From IMG/VR virus record IMGVR_UViG_3300006880_000001, positions 62,001 through 126,000 of that record: a DNA stretch of 64,000 nucleotides; one strand, given 5' to 3'. Under the pieces are notes generated by a model that was given only the letters and a program-made list of their open reading frames with translations, was not told where the DNA came from and ran no database searches. Each line of letters begins with the position of its first letter. Position 1 is the first letter of the stretch. The translations under genes were made by a program, and so were the position numbers. Below, piece by piece: positions 20,174-62,142 of the stretch. The stretch is from a virus.

Positions 20174-22054
20174 ATGACCACTGCCCGCGAGAACCTCGGT
20201 CCCGCCGAGACCATCATTCAGGCACTACTCGCGTACACGGACCACCTGGTGCACAACCGCCCCGGCATCGTCACGCCGGATCGGACGGTGACCATTGGCC
20301 TTCGCTGGGAACCCGTGACCCACAAGGTGGAGCAGGACCAGAAGGTCGTCTACCGGCTGACCAAGGTCGGCAAGAAGACGCAGCGGGTCCGCGTTGGGGC
20401 CCTGCGGCCCGACAAGAAGGTGGTCGAGGCCGGGCGGGAGGTTGCCGAGTACCGTGACAGCGGCCTCTTCCCCGAGGTGGCGACCTGGTTCTACCAGCAG
20501 GTCGCCAATGTCTGGCGCCTCGACAACGAGTTCGCCGCGCGGTGGGCGTCGTACGCCTACGGCCAGGAGCACCGTGACCTGAAGTGCGTCCTCGCGGCTT
20601 TCATGCTCGTCCAGACCCGCAAGGGCGACCCGATCGTCGAAGGTGGAGAGGTCCTCTTCCACGACGAAGACTTCCGCGACGTCGGCGAGGCCATGATGCT
20701 CCTCCACAAGAAGGGGGACGACAAGGGCCTGAACCCGAAGCTGCTACTCCGGATCTACGACATCCTGACGCTGCCGGCGGTCGCGGCCATCAACCACGAC
20801 CTCGGCTTCGGGCAGTCGACGCGTCATCCATTCCTCGGCCGCTGGCCGCGGGTGGTGGAGAAGTGGCTCCGCCACCGCGAGGAGAACCCGAAGTTGCTCG
20901 AGGGTCTCATCAAGGCCGGGTTCCGCACGGCGGTCATGGAGCTCGCGCGGCGCGTCGGCTACAAGCCGACCTCCACCCGCTTCTTCGAAGTCCTGCGCTG
21001 GAAGCAGGTCCAGGCCGACGACGGTCGGCGGGAGCTCGCCATCGGGCAGGCTACCGCGGCCGCGGAGAGCTGGGCAGGCCTCTCCGAGGAGCAGATCTGC
21101 CAGGCGATCGTCGCCGCCCGCTACGACTGGAAGCGGATCGTCAGCCTCCTGCCGAAGACCGTCGGCGTCACGCGTGCGGTGATCGCCGCGGCGATGGAGT
21201 CCGGCGGCCTCTCGAACAAGGATCTCGTCATCCTGACGCCCACGCTCGAAGAGCTCGGCCTGCTCGACGTCGGATCGATCAAGGATCGCTGGTCCGCTGC
21301 GCTCAAGGCGGCTGACGACATGCGCGCCAGCAACGTCGCCCGCAACGTTCGCAACAAGGAGACCAAGGAGAAGCTCGAGGAGGCCGCCGACGGCGCGCTG
21401 CAGAAGCAGGTCGAGGCGGTGACCCGCCAGCTGCGGGTCTACTTCATGGTCGACATCTCGGGATCCATGGAGAGCAGCATCGCCACGGCCAAGGAGTACC
21501 TCGCCAAGTTCATCCAGGGATTCCCGTCGGACCAGGTCCACGTCGCGGTCTTCAACACCCAGGGCAAGGAGGTCGCCATCAAGCACCGTTCGGCCGCGGG
21601 GGTCGAGAATGCCTTCCGTGGCTACGTCGCCGGCGGTGGCACCGACTACGGCGCCGGCGTCCGCGCGCTACGTGACCGCAAGCCCAAGGCGGACGAGGAC
21701 GTCCTCTTCATCTTCGTCGGCGACGAGGAGGCTGAGCCCTTCGCCTCGTCCGTGACGCTGTCGGGTCTCAACCCCATGGCCTTCGGCCTGCTCAAGGTTC
21801 GCCCGACGGGGGCCGGGTTCCGGGGGGTCCAGGATCACAACGCCGCCGTGCGCGAGACGGCGCGGCAGCTCAAGATTCCGTGTTTCCCGATCGAGGAGGC
21901 GATCTTCGCCGACCCCTACGCGATTCCGCGCACCATCCGCGCGCTGATCGCGGCGACGCCGATCACGCAGACGACGACGACGGTCACGCCGCGCAAGACC
22001 CTGATCGACCAGATCCTCAAGACCGAGCTCCTGACGAAGCCGACCTGGGCCTGA
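20174..22054 (+). CDS. Ro60-like TROVE/vWA RNA-binding protein
   Basis: 626 aa, near the usual size of bacterial Ro60 (about 540). An N-terminal helical-repeat TROVE-like region (about residues 20-400: WFYQQVANVWRLDNEFAARW, LPAVAAINHDLGFGQ) is followed by a von Willebrand A domain with an intact MIDAS: D427-I-S-G-S in MVDISGSMESS, T490 in GGGTDYG, D517 in FVGDEE. Ro60 family proteins form a ring that holds single-stranded ends of misfolded RNAs and Y RNAs. First gene of an operon that continues to the E1-like gene, with tRNA-like genes beyond it. Assignment strong for vWA, good for TROVE. Confidence 0.85.
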   Translation: MTTARENLGPAETIIQALLAYTDHLVHNRPGIVTPDRTVTIGLRWEPVTHKVEQDQKVVYRLTKVGKKTQRVRVGALRPDKKVVEAGREVAEYRDSGLFPEVATWFYQQVANVWRLDNEFAARWASYAYGQEHRDLKCVLAAFMLVQTRKGDPIVEGGEVLFHDEDFRDVGEAMMLLHKKGDDKGLNPKLLLRIYDILTLPAVAAINHDLGFGQSTRHPFLGRWPRVVEKWLRHREENPKLLEGLIKAGFRTAVMELARRVGYKPTSTRFFEVLRWKQVQADDGRRELAIGQATAAAESWAGLSEEQICQAIVAARYDWKRIVSLLPKTVGVTRAVIAAAMESGGLSNKDLVILTPTLEELGLLDVGSIKDRWSAALKAADDMRASNVARNVRNKETKEKLEEAADGALQKQVEAVTRQLRVYFMVDISGSMESSIATAKEYLAKFIQGFPSDQVHVAVFNTQGKEVAIKHRSAAGVENAFRGYVAGGGTDYGAGVRALRDRKPKADEDVLFIFVGDEEAEPFASSVTLSGLNPMAFGLLKVRPTGAGFRGVQDHNAAVRETARQLKIPCFPIEEAIFADPYAIPRTIRALIAATPITQTTTTVTPRKTLIDQILKTELLTKPTWA

Positions 22055-22063
22055 GGGGGCATC

Positions 22064-22435
22064 ATGGCGAACCCCGTCGAGATCCCCGTCCTCGAGATGC
22101 TCGAGGCCTACCGCAAGCTGGAAGATGCCCTCGCAGCCGTCTTCGGCTTCGATCCCTGTGCGTACGCCGGATTCGGCGACTGCACAGACATGTGGTGGGT
22201 GTCGGATGGCCGGAAGGTGTGGTCGAGCGATCAACAGCTCACCGAGGAGGTGATCACGGCTGGGCGCCACCTCTATTCCCACGTGATCAAGGAGACGCGA
22301 CGCTGCGGTTCCTACGTCGCGTTCCAATTCGAGACGGACACCGACTCGGAGATCGTAGATCTCGTTCACGTGTTCACCACCGATCTCCAGATCCATGACG
22401 AGGGACTCCTCGAGATCGCCCAGGAGACCTGGTGA
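22064..22435 (+). CDS. Unknown protein in TROVE/E1 operon
   Basis: 123 aa, soluble, with CAYAGFGDCTDMWWVSDGR and an alternating beta C-terminal half. The start follows GAGGGGG; the stop overlaps the next GTG (GTGA). No family recognised, but the tight coupling indicates it belongs to the cassette. Confidence 0.7.
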   Translation: MANPVEIPVLEMLEAYRKLEDALAAVFGFDPCAYAGFGDCTDMWWVSDGRKVWSSDQQLTEEVITAGRHLYSHVIKETRRCGSYVAFQFETDTDSEIVDLVHVFTTDLQIHDEGLLEIAQETW

Positions 22436-23382
22436 GCTGGCGAGATCTCCTCGGATCGTCTGACCAGACGATCACGTTGCCGTGGGTGGGTGGAGCGACC
22501 CTGCACGGACCGCGGTCTTGGTGGACCATCACCTACGAGGCGATGCGGTTCCTACGAGGCCACGATCACGGCTGGTACACCTTCCGCATCGATCGCCGCT
22601 GCGTCACCGATCCGCAGCCGGCGGAGCCCGATCCGACGGCCCTCCACTTCGACGCCCACGGGTACCTCGTCGGGGACCGCCTCGCGCGCTGGGACATCCG
22701 GCCTCGCGCAACTGAGCCTGCCGCCATCATCAGCTACACGGAGCCCGTCTTCCTCATCGACCCGGGCCTCGACCGGTTCGTACGCGTCAGCGCGGGCCGC
22801 GTCTACGAGCGCGGTCCCCTCATCTACCGCCAGCAAGAGATGCCGGTCGGGCCGGAGCAGGAGGTCCTCACGGCCTTCCTCGATCGGGCAGAGAACGTCG
22901 ACGCGGTCAGCGGTGTGTCGCCGGCGCTCGAGGCGGCCTTCCGAATGGAGACCCACCAGCGCGCGGAGGCGGAGCGACGTCGAGAGGAGCTCCGCCAAGA
23001 AGCGGCCCGCCTCGAGACGGAGCGTCAGGAGGCGGAACGTCGCCAGCAGATCGTCCAGCAGCTCGGCGACGGAGCGGGCCGACGCGCGGTCGCCCGGACC
23101 GACTTCGGCGACGCCGCGCGAGCGGCCCTCGCCATCGTGGACGCCGAGCTCATCGACCACCGTCGAGGACAGCGCGGAGAGTACGTCGTCCGCTACCGGA
23201 TCGAGAACCGACGCTTCGAATGCGTCTGTGACGAACAGCTCCGGATCATCGACAGTGGTATCTGCCTCGCTGACCACGCGACCGGCGAGAAGGGCGATAC
23301 ACGCTTCACGCTCGAGTCCCTCCCGACGGTCATTCGCCAAGCCATCCGCGAGAACCGCCTCGTCGTCTACCGACACGTCTGA
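22432..23382 (+). CDS. Two-domain unknown protein in TROVE/E1 operon
   Basis: 316 aa from a GTG overlapping the upstream stop. An N-terminal beta-rich domain (GGATLHGPRSWWTITYEAM) spans about residues 1-130. A charged coiled coil (about 175-220, RREELRQEAARLETERQEAE) follows. The C-terminal domain (about 235-316) has RRFECVCDEQLRIIDSG and a short helix. Cys residues in this domain could be catalytic or metal-binding. It occupies the place where an E2-like or adaptor protein might be expected, but I see no E2 signature. Confidence 0.7.
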   Translation: MSWRDLLGSSDQTITLPWVGGATLHGPRSWWTITYEAMRFLRGHDHGWYTFRIDRRCVTDPQPAEPDPTALHFDAHGYLVGDRLARWDIRPRATEPAAIISYTEPVFLIDPGLDRFVRVSAGRVYERGPLIYRQQEMPVGPEQEVLTAFLDRAENVDAVSGVSPALEAAFRMETHQRAEAERRREELRQEAARLETERQEAERRQQIVQQLGDGAGRRAVARTDFGDAARAALAIVDAELIDHRRGQRGEYVVRYRIENRRFECVCDEQLRIIDSGICLADHATGEKGDTRFTLESLPTVIRQAIRENRLVVYRHV

Positions 23383-23396
23383 AGAGGAGCAGGGAC

Positions 23397-23750
23397 ATGG
23401 ACATGAAGCTACCCCTCGTATCGCCAACGAACTCCGATCAGGATGTGGTGTTCGTATCCAACCTCGTCATCGGCCCCGGTGTGGTCCTGGAGGTGCAACG
23501 GACGGCTCCTGCCAAGGCAGGCAGAGTTGTCCAGGTGTGCATCCACGGTTGCATCGTCGACGGACGTCCGTCGCAGCACAGCGATGCCCCGCTCATCACA
23601 CTCGTCGATGCTGACGATCGGATGGTCCTCGTCATCAAGGACGCGATCATCACACGCCAAGGACCTGATCTGGCGTCCCCGATCCCCGCCGAAGTGCCGG
23701 TGGTCGAGTGGACCTCGCTGCCGCCCGAACCGCCCGAGCCCAAGGAGTGA
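23397..23750 (+). CDS. Small beta-rich unknown protein in cassette
   Basis: 117 aa. The predicted fold is a string of beta strands (VVFVSNLVIGPGVVLEVQR, GRVVQVCIHGCIVDG, MVLVIKDAIIT) with a disordered Pro/Glu tail, reminiscent of small beta-barrels. The start follows GAGGAG. Unknown function; lies just upstream of the JAB gene. Confidence 0.65.
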   Translation: MDMKLPLVSPTNSDQDVVFVSNLVIGPGVVLEVQRTAPAKAGRVVQVCIHGCIVDGRPSQHSDAPLITLVDADDRMVLVIKDAIITRQGPDLASPIPAEVPVVEWTSLPPEPPEPKE

Positions 23751-23755
23751 CCGTG

Positions 23756-24190
23756 ATGGAAACCGGCGTCCTCATCGCCAGGGGCATGGCCCCCCTCTAC
23801 TGGCACTTGCCGGAAGGGCGAACCTCCGGTAGCTTGCCCGACTCGCGCGTGCTGTGGGACACCATCTGGCTCCACCGCCACGACCTGGAGGGCTTCGCGC
23901 ATACCCACCCCGGCGGCGGCCAGCCGTGGCCGTCGACCGAAGACATCACCACCTTCTTCGCCATCGAGCTCGCGCTCGGGCGCAAGCTGACCTGGTGGAT
24001 CAGCAACCAGGAGCGGACCGTCGTCGTCGTCACCACCGACGACTACGAATTCGACCACGGCGACACGCGGGTCACGAAGTCCGGCGAGGTCATCGAAGGT
24101 CAGAAGTCCCGCCGTCAATCGTATCGCGTCTTCCCGATCCCCGACGAACCGTCCTGGGTCGCCGAACTTCGCCATCAATCCAACCTCTGA
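23756..24190 (+). CDS. JAMM/JAB-family metallopeptidase (deubiquitinase-like)
   Basis: 144 aa, a minimal JAB domain. The zinc-site signature H-x-H-P-x(n)-S-x2-D is intact: H49, H51, S60, D63 in GFAHTHPGGGQPWPSTEDI. A possible upstream Glu (E2 or E20) would complete the site. JAB enzymes cleave isopeptide or peptide bonds after ubiquitin-like C-terminal Gly. It is followed 9 nt later by a ubiquitin-like gene whose product ends Gly-Arg, which would need exactly such trimming. Start: ATG after AAGGAG; an in-frame GTG precedes it. Confidence 0.85.
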   Translation: METGVLIARGMAPLYWHLPEGRTSGSLPDSRVLWDTIWLHRHDLEGFAHTHPGGGQPWPSTEDITTFFAIELALGRKLTWWISNQERTVVVVTTDDYEFDHGDTRVTKSGEVIEGQKSRRQSYRVFPIPDEPSWVAELRHQSNL

Positions 24191-24199
24191 AGGAGCACC

Positions 24200-24496
24200 A
24201 TGAACGAACTGATCCATGTCGAGGGCCGCCGCGAGCTGGTGCGCGACGACGAAGCCCGCGTCAACATCACCTACAAGGGCGAGAACGGGGACCTACCGGA
24301 CACCATCACCTTCGATGCCACCGACGCTGACGTCAAGACGTGGGTCACGGAGGCAGTCCGGGGCGGGCACGTTCCGGGCATCGCCGCCGACCCCGGCGCG
24401 AACTTCCGCGACTTCGTCGTCGATCGCTTCACGCCCACCGACGCGCGGCCGTTCAACCTCATCTCGATCCGCCCGAAGACGCCGTTCGGCCGATGA
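24200..24496 (+). CDS. Candidate ubiquitin-like (beta-grasp) modifier
   Basis: 98 aa. Predicted order beta (ARVNITYKG), beta (DTITFDAT), helix (DADVKTWVTEAVRGG), beta (FRDFVVDRF), beta (FNLISIRPKT), which is the beta-grasp pattern. It ends TPFG-R, so removal of one residue would expose a C-terminal Gly as in ubiquitin precursors. Size and position between a JAB peptidase and an E1-like gene recall the ubiquitin-like protein C of the PRTRC plasmid cassette. No sequence-level match to ubiquitin is claimed. Confidence 0.7.
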   Translation: MNELIHVEGRRELVRDDEARVNITYKGENGDLPDTITFDATDADVKTWVTEAVRGGHVPGIAADPGANFRDFVVDRFTPTDARPFNLISIRPKTPFGR

Positions 24497-24849
24497 TGAA
24501 CGTCGTCAAGCGATGCCCGGGGTGTGGCGCTACGTGGGTTACGCCCCCGGGATCGATCATCAAATGCCGGAACTGTGGGACGACCTGCGCCGGCACGACG
24601 TCCGTCGCGTTTACCACTGACGCCCCCACGGTACAGACGGCGGACGGTGATGAGACCGCAACAGCGCTCCAACTGGCCGACGCCAAGGTCACGGAGGCCA
24701 GGGATGCGCTGCAGGCTCTCGTCAAGGCGAACCCTGCCCTCGTCCATCCTCAGTGCCGCACGTGGCAATGTCGTCGGTGTCGGCTACGCAACACGATCGA
24801 GATGCTCGAGTGCTGGGAGCCACTTTCACAGGAGGCGAAGAAGTCATGA
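24493..24849 (+). CDS. Double zinc-finger protein with NZF-like half
   Basis: 118 aa, overlapping the ubiquitin-like stop (ATGA). N-terminal zinc ribbon C8-x2-C11...C25-x2-C28. C-terminal finger W91-x-C93-x2-C96-x3-N100-x6-C107 follows the RanBP2/NZF consensus except that the last Cys is Pro110; C88 could substitute. NZF fingers in eukaryotes bind ubiquitin. A helical linker joins the two. The role as reader or ligase-like adaptor for the adjacent ubiquitin-like protein is inference. Confidence 0.75.
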   Translation: MMNVVKRCPGCGATWVTPPGSIIKCRNCGTTCAGTTSVAFTTDAPTVQTADGDETATALQLADAKVTEARDALQALVKANPALVHPQCRTWQCRRCRLRNTIEMLECWEPLSQEAKKS

Positions 24850-25439
24850 CCACCGTAGCGGGTGAGCAGCGGATCGTCATTGCGGGCATCGGAGCGTTGG
24901 GGTCGCATCTCGTGCCCCTGCTGAGGAATCTCCCCGCCGACCTTGTCGTGGTCGACTTCGACCGCGTCGAGAAGAAGAACGTGGCCTCGCAGTTCTACGG
25001 CACCTCCACCGTGGGCCAAACGAAGGTGGAGGCCCTGAAGCGCCTCATGCTGTTCCTCTACGCCGCGCCCGTGCAGGCGAAGGGGTATCGGATCTCCGAG
25101 GCGAACGTCGATGTGCTTCTGGCCGGCGCGACGCTGGTCGTGGATTGCCTCGACAACGGTGATGCGCGTCGACTCGTCCAAGGCTTCGTGCGCCGGCACA
25201 AGGTACCGTGCGTGCACGGCGCCCTCGCCGCCGATGGCAGCTTCGCCCGCGTGATGTGGGACGAGGCGTTTGTCATCGACAACGAGGACGTCGTCGGTCA
25301 GCCGACCTGCGACGGCGGCGAGCACCTGCCGTTCATCGCCGCCACGGCGGCGTGGCTCGCGCAGGCGGTGCAGACGTTCTGCCGGAGCGGAAAACAGTTC
25401 AACTACTATGTTTCTCCGGCGAACGTCATCTTGCTCTGA
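24846..25439 (+). CDS. ThiF/MoeB/E1-like adenylating enzyme
   Basis: 197 aa, overlapping the zinc-finger stop. Rossmann-type G14-x-G-x2-G (IVIAGIGALGSHL), VVDFDRVEKKNVASQFY with the conserved Asp/Asn/Gln of ThiF-E1 enzymes, K60, D100 in VVDCLDN, and candidate catalytic C155 in GQPTCDGGEH. The CxxC zinc pairs of MoeB are absent and the protein is short, as in minimal bacterial E1s. It would adenylate the C-terminal Gly of the ubiquitin-like partner. Last protein gene of the cassette. Confidence 0.85.
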   Translation: MTTVAGEQRIVIAGIGALGSHLVPLLRNLPADLVVVDFDRVEKKNVASQFYGTSTVGQTKVEALKRLMLFLYAAPVQAKGYRISEANVDVLLAGATLVVDCLDNGDARRLVQGFVRRHKVPCVHGALAADGSFARVMWDEAFVIDNEDVVGQPTCDGGEHLPFIAATAAWLAQAVQTFCRSGKQFNYYVSPANVILL

Positions 25440-25510: not shown

Positions 25511-25640
25511 GAAGGGTAAGGGGACCGGGTCCCCGCCAACTGCTAAATTGGTCCACCCCGACAACGCCTCTCGCTGGCCTCGGCTAGCACACGGCAGCTG
25601 TCTACAAGAACGGTCGGTTCGACTCCGACACCCTTCCCCA
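25511..25640 (+). tRNA. tRNA-like gene, anticodon GCT, with 52-nt insertion
   Basis: Acceptor GAAGGGT pairs fully with ACCCTTC, discriminator C, encoded CCA (25638-25640). D-arm GGGG-ACCGGGT-CCCC; anticodon arm GCCAA/TTGGT with an 8-nt loop containing GCT (25542-25544), nominally Ser. T-arm GTCGG-TTCGACT-CCGAC. Between anticodon and T arms lie 60 nt, of which 25557-25608 is nearly identical to the insertion in the next tRNA-like gene. Total length 130 nt. It may be a tRNA with a giant variable region, a tRNA carrying an intron-like element, or a tRNA-mimicking noncoding RNA. Confidence 0.65.
25557..25608 (+). repeat. 52-nt insertion, copy 1
   Basis: 48 of 52 positions match the copy at 25718-25769. 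The core can fold as GCTGG-CCTCGG-CTAGC, flanked by GCC...GGC. It ends CTGTCTACAAG. It sits in the variable region of the first tRNA-like gene. Confidence 0.8.
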
Positions 25641-25670: not shown

Positions 25671-25803
25671 CGGGGGGACGTCGCCTGGTGGCGACACTTT
25701 CATATGACGAAAGCAATCCCGACAACGCCTCTCGCTGGCCTTGGCTAGCACATGGCGCCTGTCTACAAGGAAGCCGTGACAGGTTCGATTCCTGTACCCC
25801 CGA
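25671..25803 (+). tRNA. tRNA-like gene, anticodon ATG, with 52-nt insertion
   Basis: Acceptor CGGGGGG pairs with ACCCCCG at six of seven positions; D-arm GTCG-CCTGGTGG-CGAC; perfect anticodon arm CTTTC-ATATGAC-GAAAG (anticodon ATG at 25704-25706, nominally His); perfect T-arm ACAGG-TTCGATT-CCTGT. The CCA is not encoded (CTG follows). The variable region is 65 nt and includes the second copy of the insertion. A34 in a His anticodon is unusual, which adds to the doubt that this is an ordinary tRNA. Confidence 0.6.
25718..25769 (+). repeat. 52-nt insertion, copy 2
   Basis: Differs from copy 1 by two C/T changes, both in predicted loops, and an AG/GC dinucleotide. The flanking tRNA sequences are unrelated, so the block moved or was conserved as a unit. 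Confidence 0.8.
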
Positions 25804-25832: not shown

Positions 25833-25907
25833 CGCGAAGATGCTCATTGGTCGAGCATCGGCCTTAAGAGCCGACAGGAGTCGGTTCAAATCCGACCTAC
25901 GCACCCA
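25833..25907 (+). tRNA. tRNA-like gene, anticodon TAA (Leu)
   Basis: D-arm GCTC-ATTGGTC-GAGC, anticodon arm TCGGC-CTTAAGA-GCCGA (anticodon TAA, 25865-25867), 5-nt variable loop, T-arm GTCGG-TTCAAAT-CCGAC, encoded CCA. The acceptor CGCGAAG/CTACGCA has two mismatches. A short variable loop is atypical for bacterial tRNA-Leu, so identity is uncertain. No 52-nt insertion. Confidence 0.6.
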
Positions 25908-26553: not shown

Positions 26554-27210
26554 TCACGGCCGGCGGCGTCGAGTCCGCCGCAGCCGCGTCCTCGTCGCAA
26601 GGCGCCGGAGCGCGCGGCCGAGGAGATCCGCCGCCGGCTGTGCCGGGTACCGGGTGCCGACGTCGAGGATGGTCACGCGGCCGTTGTCGTCGATGCCGAC
26701 GTTGTCACTGTGGAGGTCGTCGAGGGCGGGGATGCCACGCTCGTCGAGCTCCGTGACCGTCTCGTGGAGGTGCTCCATGACGTACCGGCACTCGTCCATC
26801 TCCGACCGGCGCGCCGAGACGGTGCACACCTCCTTGGCGATCTGGCTTCGTGGCGTCTTCGCGCGGAACGCGTCGACGAAGTTGATGAACCAGTCGCTCC
26901 AGTAGCCGGGGGAGGGCCGAAGCCGGTCAACCACCACCGCGTAGGCGTACGGCTGTCCGTTCTGGCGCAGGAGGTAGGTCTGGTGGACCTTGACGACGCC
27001 GCGGATGCCTTGCCCTCGTTGGAGGCCATCGACGTCGCTGGCGTCGGTGGTGACCTTCACCAGCTTGCCGTCGTCGCGCTCGTAGACACAGGCCTGAGAC
27101 CCGCACGCGATCGGCTTCGTACCCTTCAGACGAAGGGCCTCCTCCTGCTTCGAGCTCAAGCAGAGGAGGGTCCTCTTCGCCGCGCGGACGCAGCTCGGTG
27201 GCTTCGCCAC
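26554..27210 (-). CDS. Protein kinase-like fold protein
   Basis: 218 aa from a GTG just after the upstream stop. Kinase-type elements: a Gly-containing ACGSQACVYERDDGKLVKV lobe with a candidate ATP-binding Lys, a catalytic-loop-like LDDLHSDNVGI (H-x-D-N), and a metal-binding ILDVG. This resembles RIO/aminoglycoside-phosphotransferase-like folds more than Hanks kinases. The C-terminus is very basic. Substrate unknown. Start uncertain by a few codons. Confidence 0.7.
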   Translation of the reverse strand: MAKPPSCVRAAKRTLLCLSSKQEEALRLKGTKPIACGSQACVYERDDGKLVKVTTDASDVDGLQRGQGIRGVVKVHQTYLLRQNGQPYAYAVVVDRLRPSPGYWSDWFINFVDAFRAKTPRSQIAKEVCTVSARRSEMDECRYVMEHLHETVTELDERGIPALDDLHSDNVGIDDNGRVTILDVGTRYPAQPAADLLGRALRRLATRTRLRRTRRRRP

Positions 27211-27218
27211 GGGCCGCC

Positions 27219-28046
27219 TCAGCGGCGCGAGCGCGACACGCCGTAGGCGACTCCGCCCACGACGGCCAGCGCCAGGCCGACCTTGAGCCACTTCGGGAGT
27301 CCGAAGTGGATGGCGCCCTCTGCCGAGGTGGTCATCGACGTCTCATCCGGGGGAGGGATCGGGAGGCCGGCCTGCACCGGCGGCTGCGTCGGGATCTGCG
27401 AGCCCGGCACCGGTGAGGAGGGGGGCTTGATGGGCGGGGACGGCAGCTGCGAGCCCGGGATCGGCTGGCCGGGGATCGGCAACGACGGGGGCTTCACCGG
27501 CGTCGAGCCGGTCGGCATGCAGACACCCGGACCGATGATGGGGACGACGTAGTTGGTCCCGGCGGGGCACTGGGTGTTGTACGTCTGGGGCAGCGTGGTC
27601 GGCTTGGCACAGAGCCACGCTCCGCTGGCCTGGAGGACGGGCGTCGTCCCGACGGGGCAGGATGGCTTCGGCGCCGGCGTCGGCGTGGTGCAGACCCACC
27701 TGCTGTTCGCGGCGCTCCAGACCATGGTCTGGCCCGGCTGGCAGCGCGGGATGGGGGCTTTGAGGCAGGACCAGCCCGTCACGATGGTCTTGAGCGTGGA
27801 TCCGATGGAGCCCGGTACCGCGGCGGTTCGGGTCGGCGTCGCCACGTAGCCCACCTTGCACGTCGGCTTCGGCGCCGGCTTCGGTGCCGTCGTCGTGGGT
27901 GTGGTCGACGTCGGAATCCCGCCGCCGCCACCGTAGTCGGTGGGGCTGGGGGTCATCGTGGCGTTCAACGCCGGGCCAGCGAGGCGCGCGCCGAGCAGAA
28001 CCGTACGCCCGTCGGGGCCCGTGATCTCACCGCTGATCCAGGACAT
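27219..28046 (-). CDS. Cys-repeat, proline-rich membrane-anchored protein
   Basis: 275 aa. After a short N-terminal region, four Cys-pair units (CKVGYV...WSC, CQPGQTMVWSAANSRWVC, CPVGTTP...GAWLC, CPAGTNY...GPGVC) are separated by Thr/Pro linkers. Then repeated PIPGSQLP / PVPGSQIP segments, a membrane helix (KVGLALAVVGGVAYGV) and an SRSRR end. This looks like an extracellular or virion-surface stalk with small disulphide modules. No homologue recognised. Confidence 0.75.
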   Translation of the reverse strand: MSWISGEITGPDGRTVLLGARLAGPALNATMTPSPTDYGGGGGIPTSTTPTTTAPKPAPKPTCKVGYVATPTRTAAVPGSIGSTLKTIVTGWSCLKAPIPRCQPGQTMVWSAANSRWVCTTPTPAPKPSCPVGTTPVLQASGAWLCAKPTTLPQTYNTQCPAGTNYVVPIIGPGVCMPTGSTPVKPPSLPIPGQPIPGSQLPSPPIKPPSSPVPGSQIPTQPPVQAGLPIPPPDETSMTTSAEGAIHFGLPKWLKVGLALAVVGGVAYGVSRSRR

Positions 28047-61863: not shown

Positions 61864-62142
61864 ATGGTGACTCTTGGCCTGGCGCAGCTGGAGCGTTGGG
61901 AGCAGGTTCCCGACTTCGAGCCGAGCAACGTCAACCAGCTGGTCATCCAGGACCACACGGGCATCCCCGGGGCGTACACCTCCGGGGGCTACTCGTCGTT
62001 CTTCTTCAACCGGATCGAGCCGGGAGGGACCAGCTTGTACGGTGCAACCGACGATCGGCGGCCCCTCCGGGCCTTCCTGGCTGGCGCGGCGGTGGCCGGG
62101 TTCTTCACCTGGCTGTTCGCTGGCTCCTGCAAGCGACGCTGA
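61864..62142 (+). CDS. C-terminally membrane-anchored protein
   Basis: 92 aa. Polar aromatic N-terminal region (SGGYSSFFFNRIEPGGTSL), one membrane helix (FLAGAAVAGFFTWLFAGSC) and a KRR end. GGGAGGTCCT before the ATG. The tail-anchored layout matches the proteins of the 1-10 kb block, supporting a common structural role. Confidence 0.7.
   Translation: MVTLGLAQLERWEQVPDFEPSNVNQLVIQDHTGIPGAYTSGGYSSFFFNRIEPGGTSLYGATDDRRPLRAFLAGAAVAGFFTWLFAGSCKRR

Follow-up and report, generated by a model that had tools for sequence, protein, structure and literature searches.

The stretch of DNA analysed here (the window) covers 64,000 nucleotides, positions 62,001 to 126,000, of the IMG/VR virus record IMGVR_UViG_3300006880_000001, which is 129,359 bases long. 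Between positions 20174 and 25439 it carries eight open reading frames (ORFs), all on the + strand and overlapping or closely spaced, as an initial annotation made from the sequence alone had described them. The phage origin given there also holds; the surroundings encode a phage-type DNA polymerase, helicases, a Sak4-like annealing protein and a thymidylate synthase. Five of the ORFs form a conserved core: a TROVE-vWA protein resembling Ro60 (in humans an RNA quality-control protein), a protein that we call g3, a JAB/JAMM peptidase, a ubiquitin-like protein (Ubl) and an E1-like adenylating enzyme. Directly after the E1 gene lie two tRNA-like genes with a structured insert in their variable region. 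The reported gene grouping is confirmed, and it is larger than first described.

A five-gene core shared by large viruses

Dozens of separate large viral contigs, the longest of 619 kb, have inherited the five core genes together. Scans with the TROVE-vWA and Ubl alignments recovered 57 and 49 viral loci, respectively, together with 11 contigs from bacterial genomes, mostly labelled Myxococcota, Kofleriaceae, Polyangia or Deltaproteobacteria. One of these bacterial cassettes comes from the cultured Paraliomyxa miuraensis, on a contig of 799 kb; the same genome has, in addition, two separate TROVE proteins that Pfam recognises (L120 and L121). Where a locus is long enough for the order to be read, it is almost always vWA, g3, JAB, Ubl, E1 on one strand; the Ubl gene precedes JAB in L064, and JAB is missing from L061, L062 and L065. 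Pairwise distances of the five families correlate over 47 loci (Spearman 0.41-0.69, each pair above all 500 permutations), and each of the 19 viruses searched has a single copy of the TROVE gene. The initial annotation had staked its proposal on the genes being conserved together elsewhere, and the neighbourhood search bears this out for the core: because the five genes recur together in dozens of contigs, a chance grouping is excluded. It does not bear it out for the other three genes of the proposed eight-gene cassette, which showed no conservation elsewhere.

Of 50,697 sequenced phages, Rctr197k (KX853510) alone encodes a protein closely related to the TROVE-vWA protein or to the Ubl, and no TROVE-vWA relative was found on plasmids. 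No cassette was seen with a ThiF protein of a Dolichospermum plasmid. The 595-kb uncultured phage LR756511.1 encodes an E1 relative (38% identity) with no TROVE relative detected and no cassette seen; this E1 could mark a second Ubl cassette.

Core proteins and private genes

The first core gene (20174-22054, +), present in all cassette loci, encodes 626 residues in which a vWA domain is the only Pfam domain found (VWA_2, 1.1e-8). The residues of its metal ion-dependent adhesion site (MIDAS, DxSxS..T..D), namely D427, S429, S431, T490 and D517, are invariant in 53 relatives. The protein is far from Pfam TROVE: PF05731, a model that does recover true TROVE proteins elsewhere, matched none of 53 family members at E<=10 and nothing in the virus record. 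The AlphaFold model (predicted local distance difference test, pLDDT, 86.6) nevertheless has as its three best PDB matches 9kop (a TROVE domain, 4.9e-7), 9l5y (Ro60 of the Thermus phage phiLo) and 1yvr (the Ro autoantigen), each over about 545 columns, and as its sixth 2i91, Ro with misfolded RNA. Profile-profile comparison with four true TROVE proteins (hhalign) gave a probability of 93.6%. Fold search and hhalign both point to the Ro60 fold, in which a TROVE domain of helical repeats precedes a C-terminal vWA domain. The TROVE/vWA identity first proposed is upheld by these results together with VWA_2 and the invariant MIDAS, with Pfam TROVE negative, and on the strength of the predicted fold we take the product as a divergent Ro60.

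The JAB gene (23753-24190, +; likely start at 23753 or 23756, the longest ORF not being favoured) encodes a peptidase whose metal-site residues E, HxH, S and D are intact in the window and invariant in 11 of 11 relatives, all of which match Prok-JAB (best 1.2e-5). The H-x-H...S-x2-D signature noted earlier is confirmed.

The Ubl (24200-24496, +) matches no Pfam or NCBIfam model. It is predicted with confidence (AlphaFold pLDDT 91) to adopt the E-E-H-E-E, or beta-beta-alpha-beta-beta, order of a beta-grasp, the fold on which the initial annotation had made its reading depend. Its Foldseek list consists mostly of Ub-like folds (ubiquitin-like domains, RBD/RA, PB1, ESX Ubl), with a best E of only 0.13. 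The best conserved stretch is the C-terminal RPKTPFG, whose Gly97 is invariant in 46 aligned Ubls and which is followed by an unconserved tail of 0 to about 60 residues; in the window a single Arg follows, so that the protein ends ..TPFGR, with the Gly-Arg end originally reported. Among 61 Ubls, 15 end at the Gly, 21 have one extra residue and 25 have more. JAB is present in every locus with one of the 46 tailed Ubls, and the three Ubl loci without JAB are all tailless, as expected if JAB exposes the glycine; this association (3/3 against 15/61 overall) is small and ignores relatedness. In L007, L009, L026 and L048 the tails carry CxxC zinc-knuckle-like motifs.

The E1-like enzyme (24846-25439, +; about 197 residues from the likely start at 24846, again shorter than the longest ORF) has the ThiF/MoeB fold (Pfam ThiF 3.3e-21; best PDB match MoeB, 1e-14). 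It keeps GxGALGSH, the DxD aspartates, a Lys, DCxDN and a conserved Cys in TCxxGxxLPFI; across the alignment GxGALGSH, DxD, Lys60, Asp100/Asp103 and Cys155 (A4 numbering) vary little or not at all. The E1-like assignment, made earlier from GxGxxG and Asp/Asn residues, stands, with most adenylation residues kept. PADLOC E1-E2 models match the E1 domain.

The remaining core protein, g3 (22432-23382, +; 316 residues), is as well conserved as the cassette enzymes. It consists of an N-terminal domain, a charged coiled-coil-like middle and a C-terminal domain in which, over 44 aligned homologues, Cys278 is invariant and Cys264 nearly so. Searches gave no recurrent Pfam match and no PDB sequence match, and the family search returned nothing that would point to an E2-like identity. 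We regard g3 as a candidate for an E2/E3-like or RNP (ribonucleoprotein)-scaffold role.

Interspersed with the core are three ORFs private to the window genome, for which no relatives were found in the scanned viral and bacterial loci: a 123-residue ORF without family match (22064-22435, +), a 117-residue ORF (23397-23750, +) and a zinc-ribbon/NZF-like protein (24493-24849, +) that overlaps the Ubl stop. From its sequence, the last contains a CxxC..CxxC ribbon and a WxCx2Cx3Nx6C stretch resembling NZF, in which the last Cys is absent. That it is a conserved part of the cassette was not borne out; lying directly after the Ubl, whose tail in some relatives itself carries CxxC motifs, it is possibly a split-off former tail. 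Next to the cassette, a weak protein-kinase/APH-like match was seen on the opposite strand (26554-27291, -).

tRNA arrays and a structured variable-region insert

The cassette is embedded in arrays of tRNA genes on its own strand. We surveyed tRNA genes at 69 distinct loci, fetching about 20 kb for each (about 10 kb either way). They lie near the cassette in 57 loci, with five or more in 40, and 852 of the 880 tRNAs share the cassette strand. A tRNA follows E1 within 1.5 kb in 38 loci and precedes the TROVE gene within 500 bp in 27. Compared with matched 20-kb stretches half a genome away in the same viruses, tRNAs are strongly enriched at the cassette (17.4 vs 1.3 per 20 kb; 18 viruses, Wilcoxon p=0.0014). 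Four of the arrays (L011, L034, L038, L115) also contain tmRNA genes. RtcB was found in 11 of 19 cassette viruses and an RNA ligase over the cut-off in 6 of 19, in keeping with RNA repair. The link to RNA handling, which the initial annotation had drawn from the Ro60-like gene, is upheld and much strengthened by the arrays and by the tRNA inserts described below.

In the window, the two tRNA-like genes after E1 (25511-25637 and 25672-25801, +) contain 52-nt inserts at 25557-25608 and 25718-25769 that are 92% identical; acceptor, D, anticodon and T arms are present in the first. An ordinary tRNA-Leu(taa) follows (25833-25907, +). The inserts belong to a family of about 55-60 nt found in the variable region of tRNA genes adjoining the cassette, with the architecture CC, outer stem, CTC, hairpin, outer stem, ACAAG and then the T arm. 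It recurs in dozens of tRNA genes of related loci, which keep intact acceptor and anticodon arms and have many different anticodons, mostly in 7-nt anticodon loops.

The outer helix of the insert, which played no part in selecting the copies, pairs in 75.6% of cells, compared with 53.1% after shuffling and 31-44% when slid. Its covariation is 0.621 vs 0.253 for shuffled data and was reached by 0 of 500 shuffles. Covariation was tested on this helix only, and the inner hairpin is not counted as independent evidence because it served as a selection filter. A covariance model detected 81 copies at 42 of 64 cassette loci (two in the window and 79 in related loci) and none in 23 controls (18 stretches of the same viruses and five canonical Ro phage loci), a comparison in which many cassette loci, and no controls, supplied sequences to the model. 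Of the 78 copies that could be placed, 64 are close to the cassette, at most 1.5 kb upstream or 1.8 kb downstream of it. In the 619-kb virus G007, a second array of 17 tRNAs far from the cassette (L146) has no match to the model, and the insert therefore seems specific to cassette-proximal tRNAs.

No Rfam family fits the insert; only weak tRNA-Sec and tRNA matches were obtained at these places, and no Rfam Y RNA match that would place the insert-bearing genes with bacterial Y RNAs (YrlA). An exact 27-nt insert pattern had no match among viral contigs because the element is conserved in structure and not in sequence; a search combining pattern and pairing then found many copies. Of the roles that may be considered for the insert, we rank a Ro-binding arm highest, because the insert adjoins a Ro gene and bacterial Y RNAs are tRNA-like.

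Relation to known systems and possible function

A close parallel on the RNA side is the Salmonella rsr-yrlBA-rtcBA operon, in which Ro60, a tRNA-like Y RNA and RtcB are encoded together and induced by damaged tRNAs (PMC7790460). The cassette resembles it in having a TROVE-vWA gene beside tRNA-like RNAs, a link to damaged tRNA, and RtcB in many of the same viruses. It differs in adding Ubl, JAB, E1 and g3, in that RtcB lies outside it, and in that its RNA component consists of tRNA genes whose variable region holds an insert, not of YrlA, for which Rfam gave no match. Ro-type genes also occur inside tRNA arrays of actinobacteriophages (for example Streptomyces phage Blueeyedbeauty and Gordonia phage Sixama), but their products align with TROVE proteins that Pfam recognises, they have no annotated JAB, Ubl or E1 nearby, and no insert-bearing tRNAs were found there; none of the five canonical Ro phage neighbourhoods checked is annotated with a Ubl/JAB/E1 cassette. 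In archaea, TROVE genes are present in 20 of 29 tRNA gene clusters (PMC6333295); these share the placement of TROVE within a tRNA cluster, and that paper mentions no ubiquitin-like system.

On the modifier side, the PRTRC plasmid cassette combines JAB, Ubl and ThiF-fold genes, a joint presence that is a likeness to the viral cassette. The kinship suggested at first does not hold: E1 scores 29 bits against PRTRC_ThiF (cut-off 144.75), below the ThiF/MoeB models. PRTRC membership was rejected on the other genes as well, as no PRTRC model matches JAB, Ubl or g3, JAB (like the Ubl) matches no NCBIfam model at all, and no other PRTRC gene was recognised. Prokaryotic Ubl/JAB/E1 neighbourhoods and Ubl-based defence are known (Iyer 2006, PMC1779556; CBASS Cap2, PMC10097602) and, like these, the viral cassette encodes Ubl, JAB and E1-fold enzymes together. 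Unlike the Bil/CBASS type, it lacks an E2 domain or recognised E3 and adjoins TROVE and tRNAs. The parts are of known kinds, but the assembly is new, the Ubl set being the new element beside the known link between TROVE and tRNA. Neither the combination nor the insert is described in the open-access literature searched (which excludes the 2016 RNA-repair survey by Burroughs and Aravind and a review of bacterial Ro60 from 2020), and the tRNA variable-region insert appears undescribed.

We propose, at about even odds (probability near 0.5), that the cassette is a viral module of Ro60 type that handles RNA, brings its own ubiquitin-like modifier and acts on viral tRNAs. JAB would trim the Ubl to ..PFG, E1 would activate the exposed glycine, and the Ubl would be joined to the TROVE protein or to a partner, perhaps with g3 as transfer factor or scaffold, to be removed again by JAB. 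The Ubl state could then govern how a TROVE RNP assembles or turns over on viral tRNAs, those bearing the insert serving as Y-RNA-like ligands of the TROVE protein. The virus would gain a means of tRNA quality control or repair, keeping viral tRNAs usable under host nuclease attack. More tentatively, Ubl conjugation itself may regulate a Ro60-type RNP whose partners are the viral tRNAs with the new structured insert, which would then be a new RNA family.

Several observations weigh against this proposal. TM-scores to TROVE structures are low (0.29/0.37), and the domain arrangement is therefore uncertain. No E2 domain or recognisable E3 was found in any cassette protein by Pfam and NCBIfam family searches, and the canonical Arg of NxxRQ is replaced by Ser or Ala in all 11 aligned E1 members. 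In at least one locus (L067), TROVE and g3 are followed by 4.6 kb without JAB, Ubl or E1, and these two RNA-side genes may be able to stand alone. Phage tRNA arrays also harbour canonical Ro genes with no annotated Ubl system alongside, and tRNA islands collect unrelated genes. The insert might also be an intron or an antidefence arm and not a Ro ligand.

The main rival, although rather unlikely, is sulfur transfer to tRNA, in which the Ubl is not a modifier but a carrier for tRNA thiolation (Urm1/SAMP2/TtuB-like) that, once trimmed and adenylated, delivers sulfur to viral tRNAs bound by the TROVE protein. In its favour, E1 is closest to MoeB and Uba4/ThiF, the cassette has tRNA arrays beside it, bacterial JAB/E1/Ubl sets serve sulfur transfer (PMC1779556), and Urm1 does both jobs (PMC7527816). 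The Ubl, however, ends in FG and not in the C-terminal GG of carriers, no rhodanese domain is reported in the eight cassette proteins, and ATP_bind_3 (the NcsA/TtuA/TilS fold) exceeded the cut-off in only one of 19 viruses, MnmA and ThiI not being included in that search; host enzymes could supply the last step. The Ubl might instead serve counter-defence, tagging a host nuclease or defence protein, with the TROVE protein recruiting damaged tRNA and thereby bringing the tagging reaction close to the nuclease. tRNA arrays have been proposed as antidefence devices (PMC12803027), and phage T6 escapes Septu, which cuts a tRNA variable loop, by amplifying anti-defence loci (PMC13096335); the cassette has no known E3 or target-recognition module, and we consider this reading unlikely.

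That two unrelated functions share one permissive tRNA island, linked by neighbourhood only, seems improbable. Private genes do come and go in and around the cassette, HNH endonucleases gather in the tRNA arrays of other mobile elements (PMC5966550), and canonical Ro genes occur in phage arrays without annotated Ubl genes. Yet order and strand are kept at a median identity of about 0.5 while intervening genes turn over, the distances between the five families correlate, and the other widespread clusters prove to be artefacts (antisense or shifted-frame), apart from one or two families present in about half of the loci or fewer. Most improbable is that E1 is a pseudo-enzyme and the Ubl a non-covalent scaffold in an RNP, as the Ser or Ala at the NxxRQ Arg position could suggest: the other active-site residues of E1 are conserved as given above, and an intact JAB site and processing-type Ubl tails make little sense without activation.

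The module proposed here brings together three subjects that are mostly treated separately: Ro60/Y-RNA biology, prokaryotic Ubl systems, and the tRNA arrays of large phages, which have lacked an explanation. Because the five genes are short, recurrent and can be reconstituted, the role of phage tRNA arrays and Ro proteins becomes directly testable, and the covarying insert offers a concrete RNA to pull down. The cassette points to a viral use of ubiquitin-style chemistry in tRNA management.

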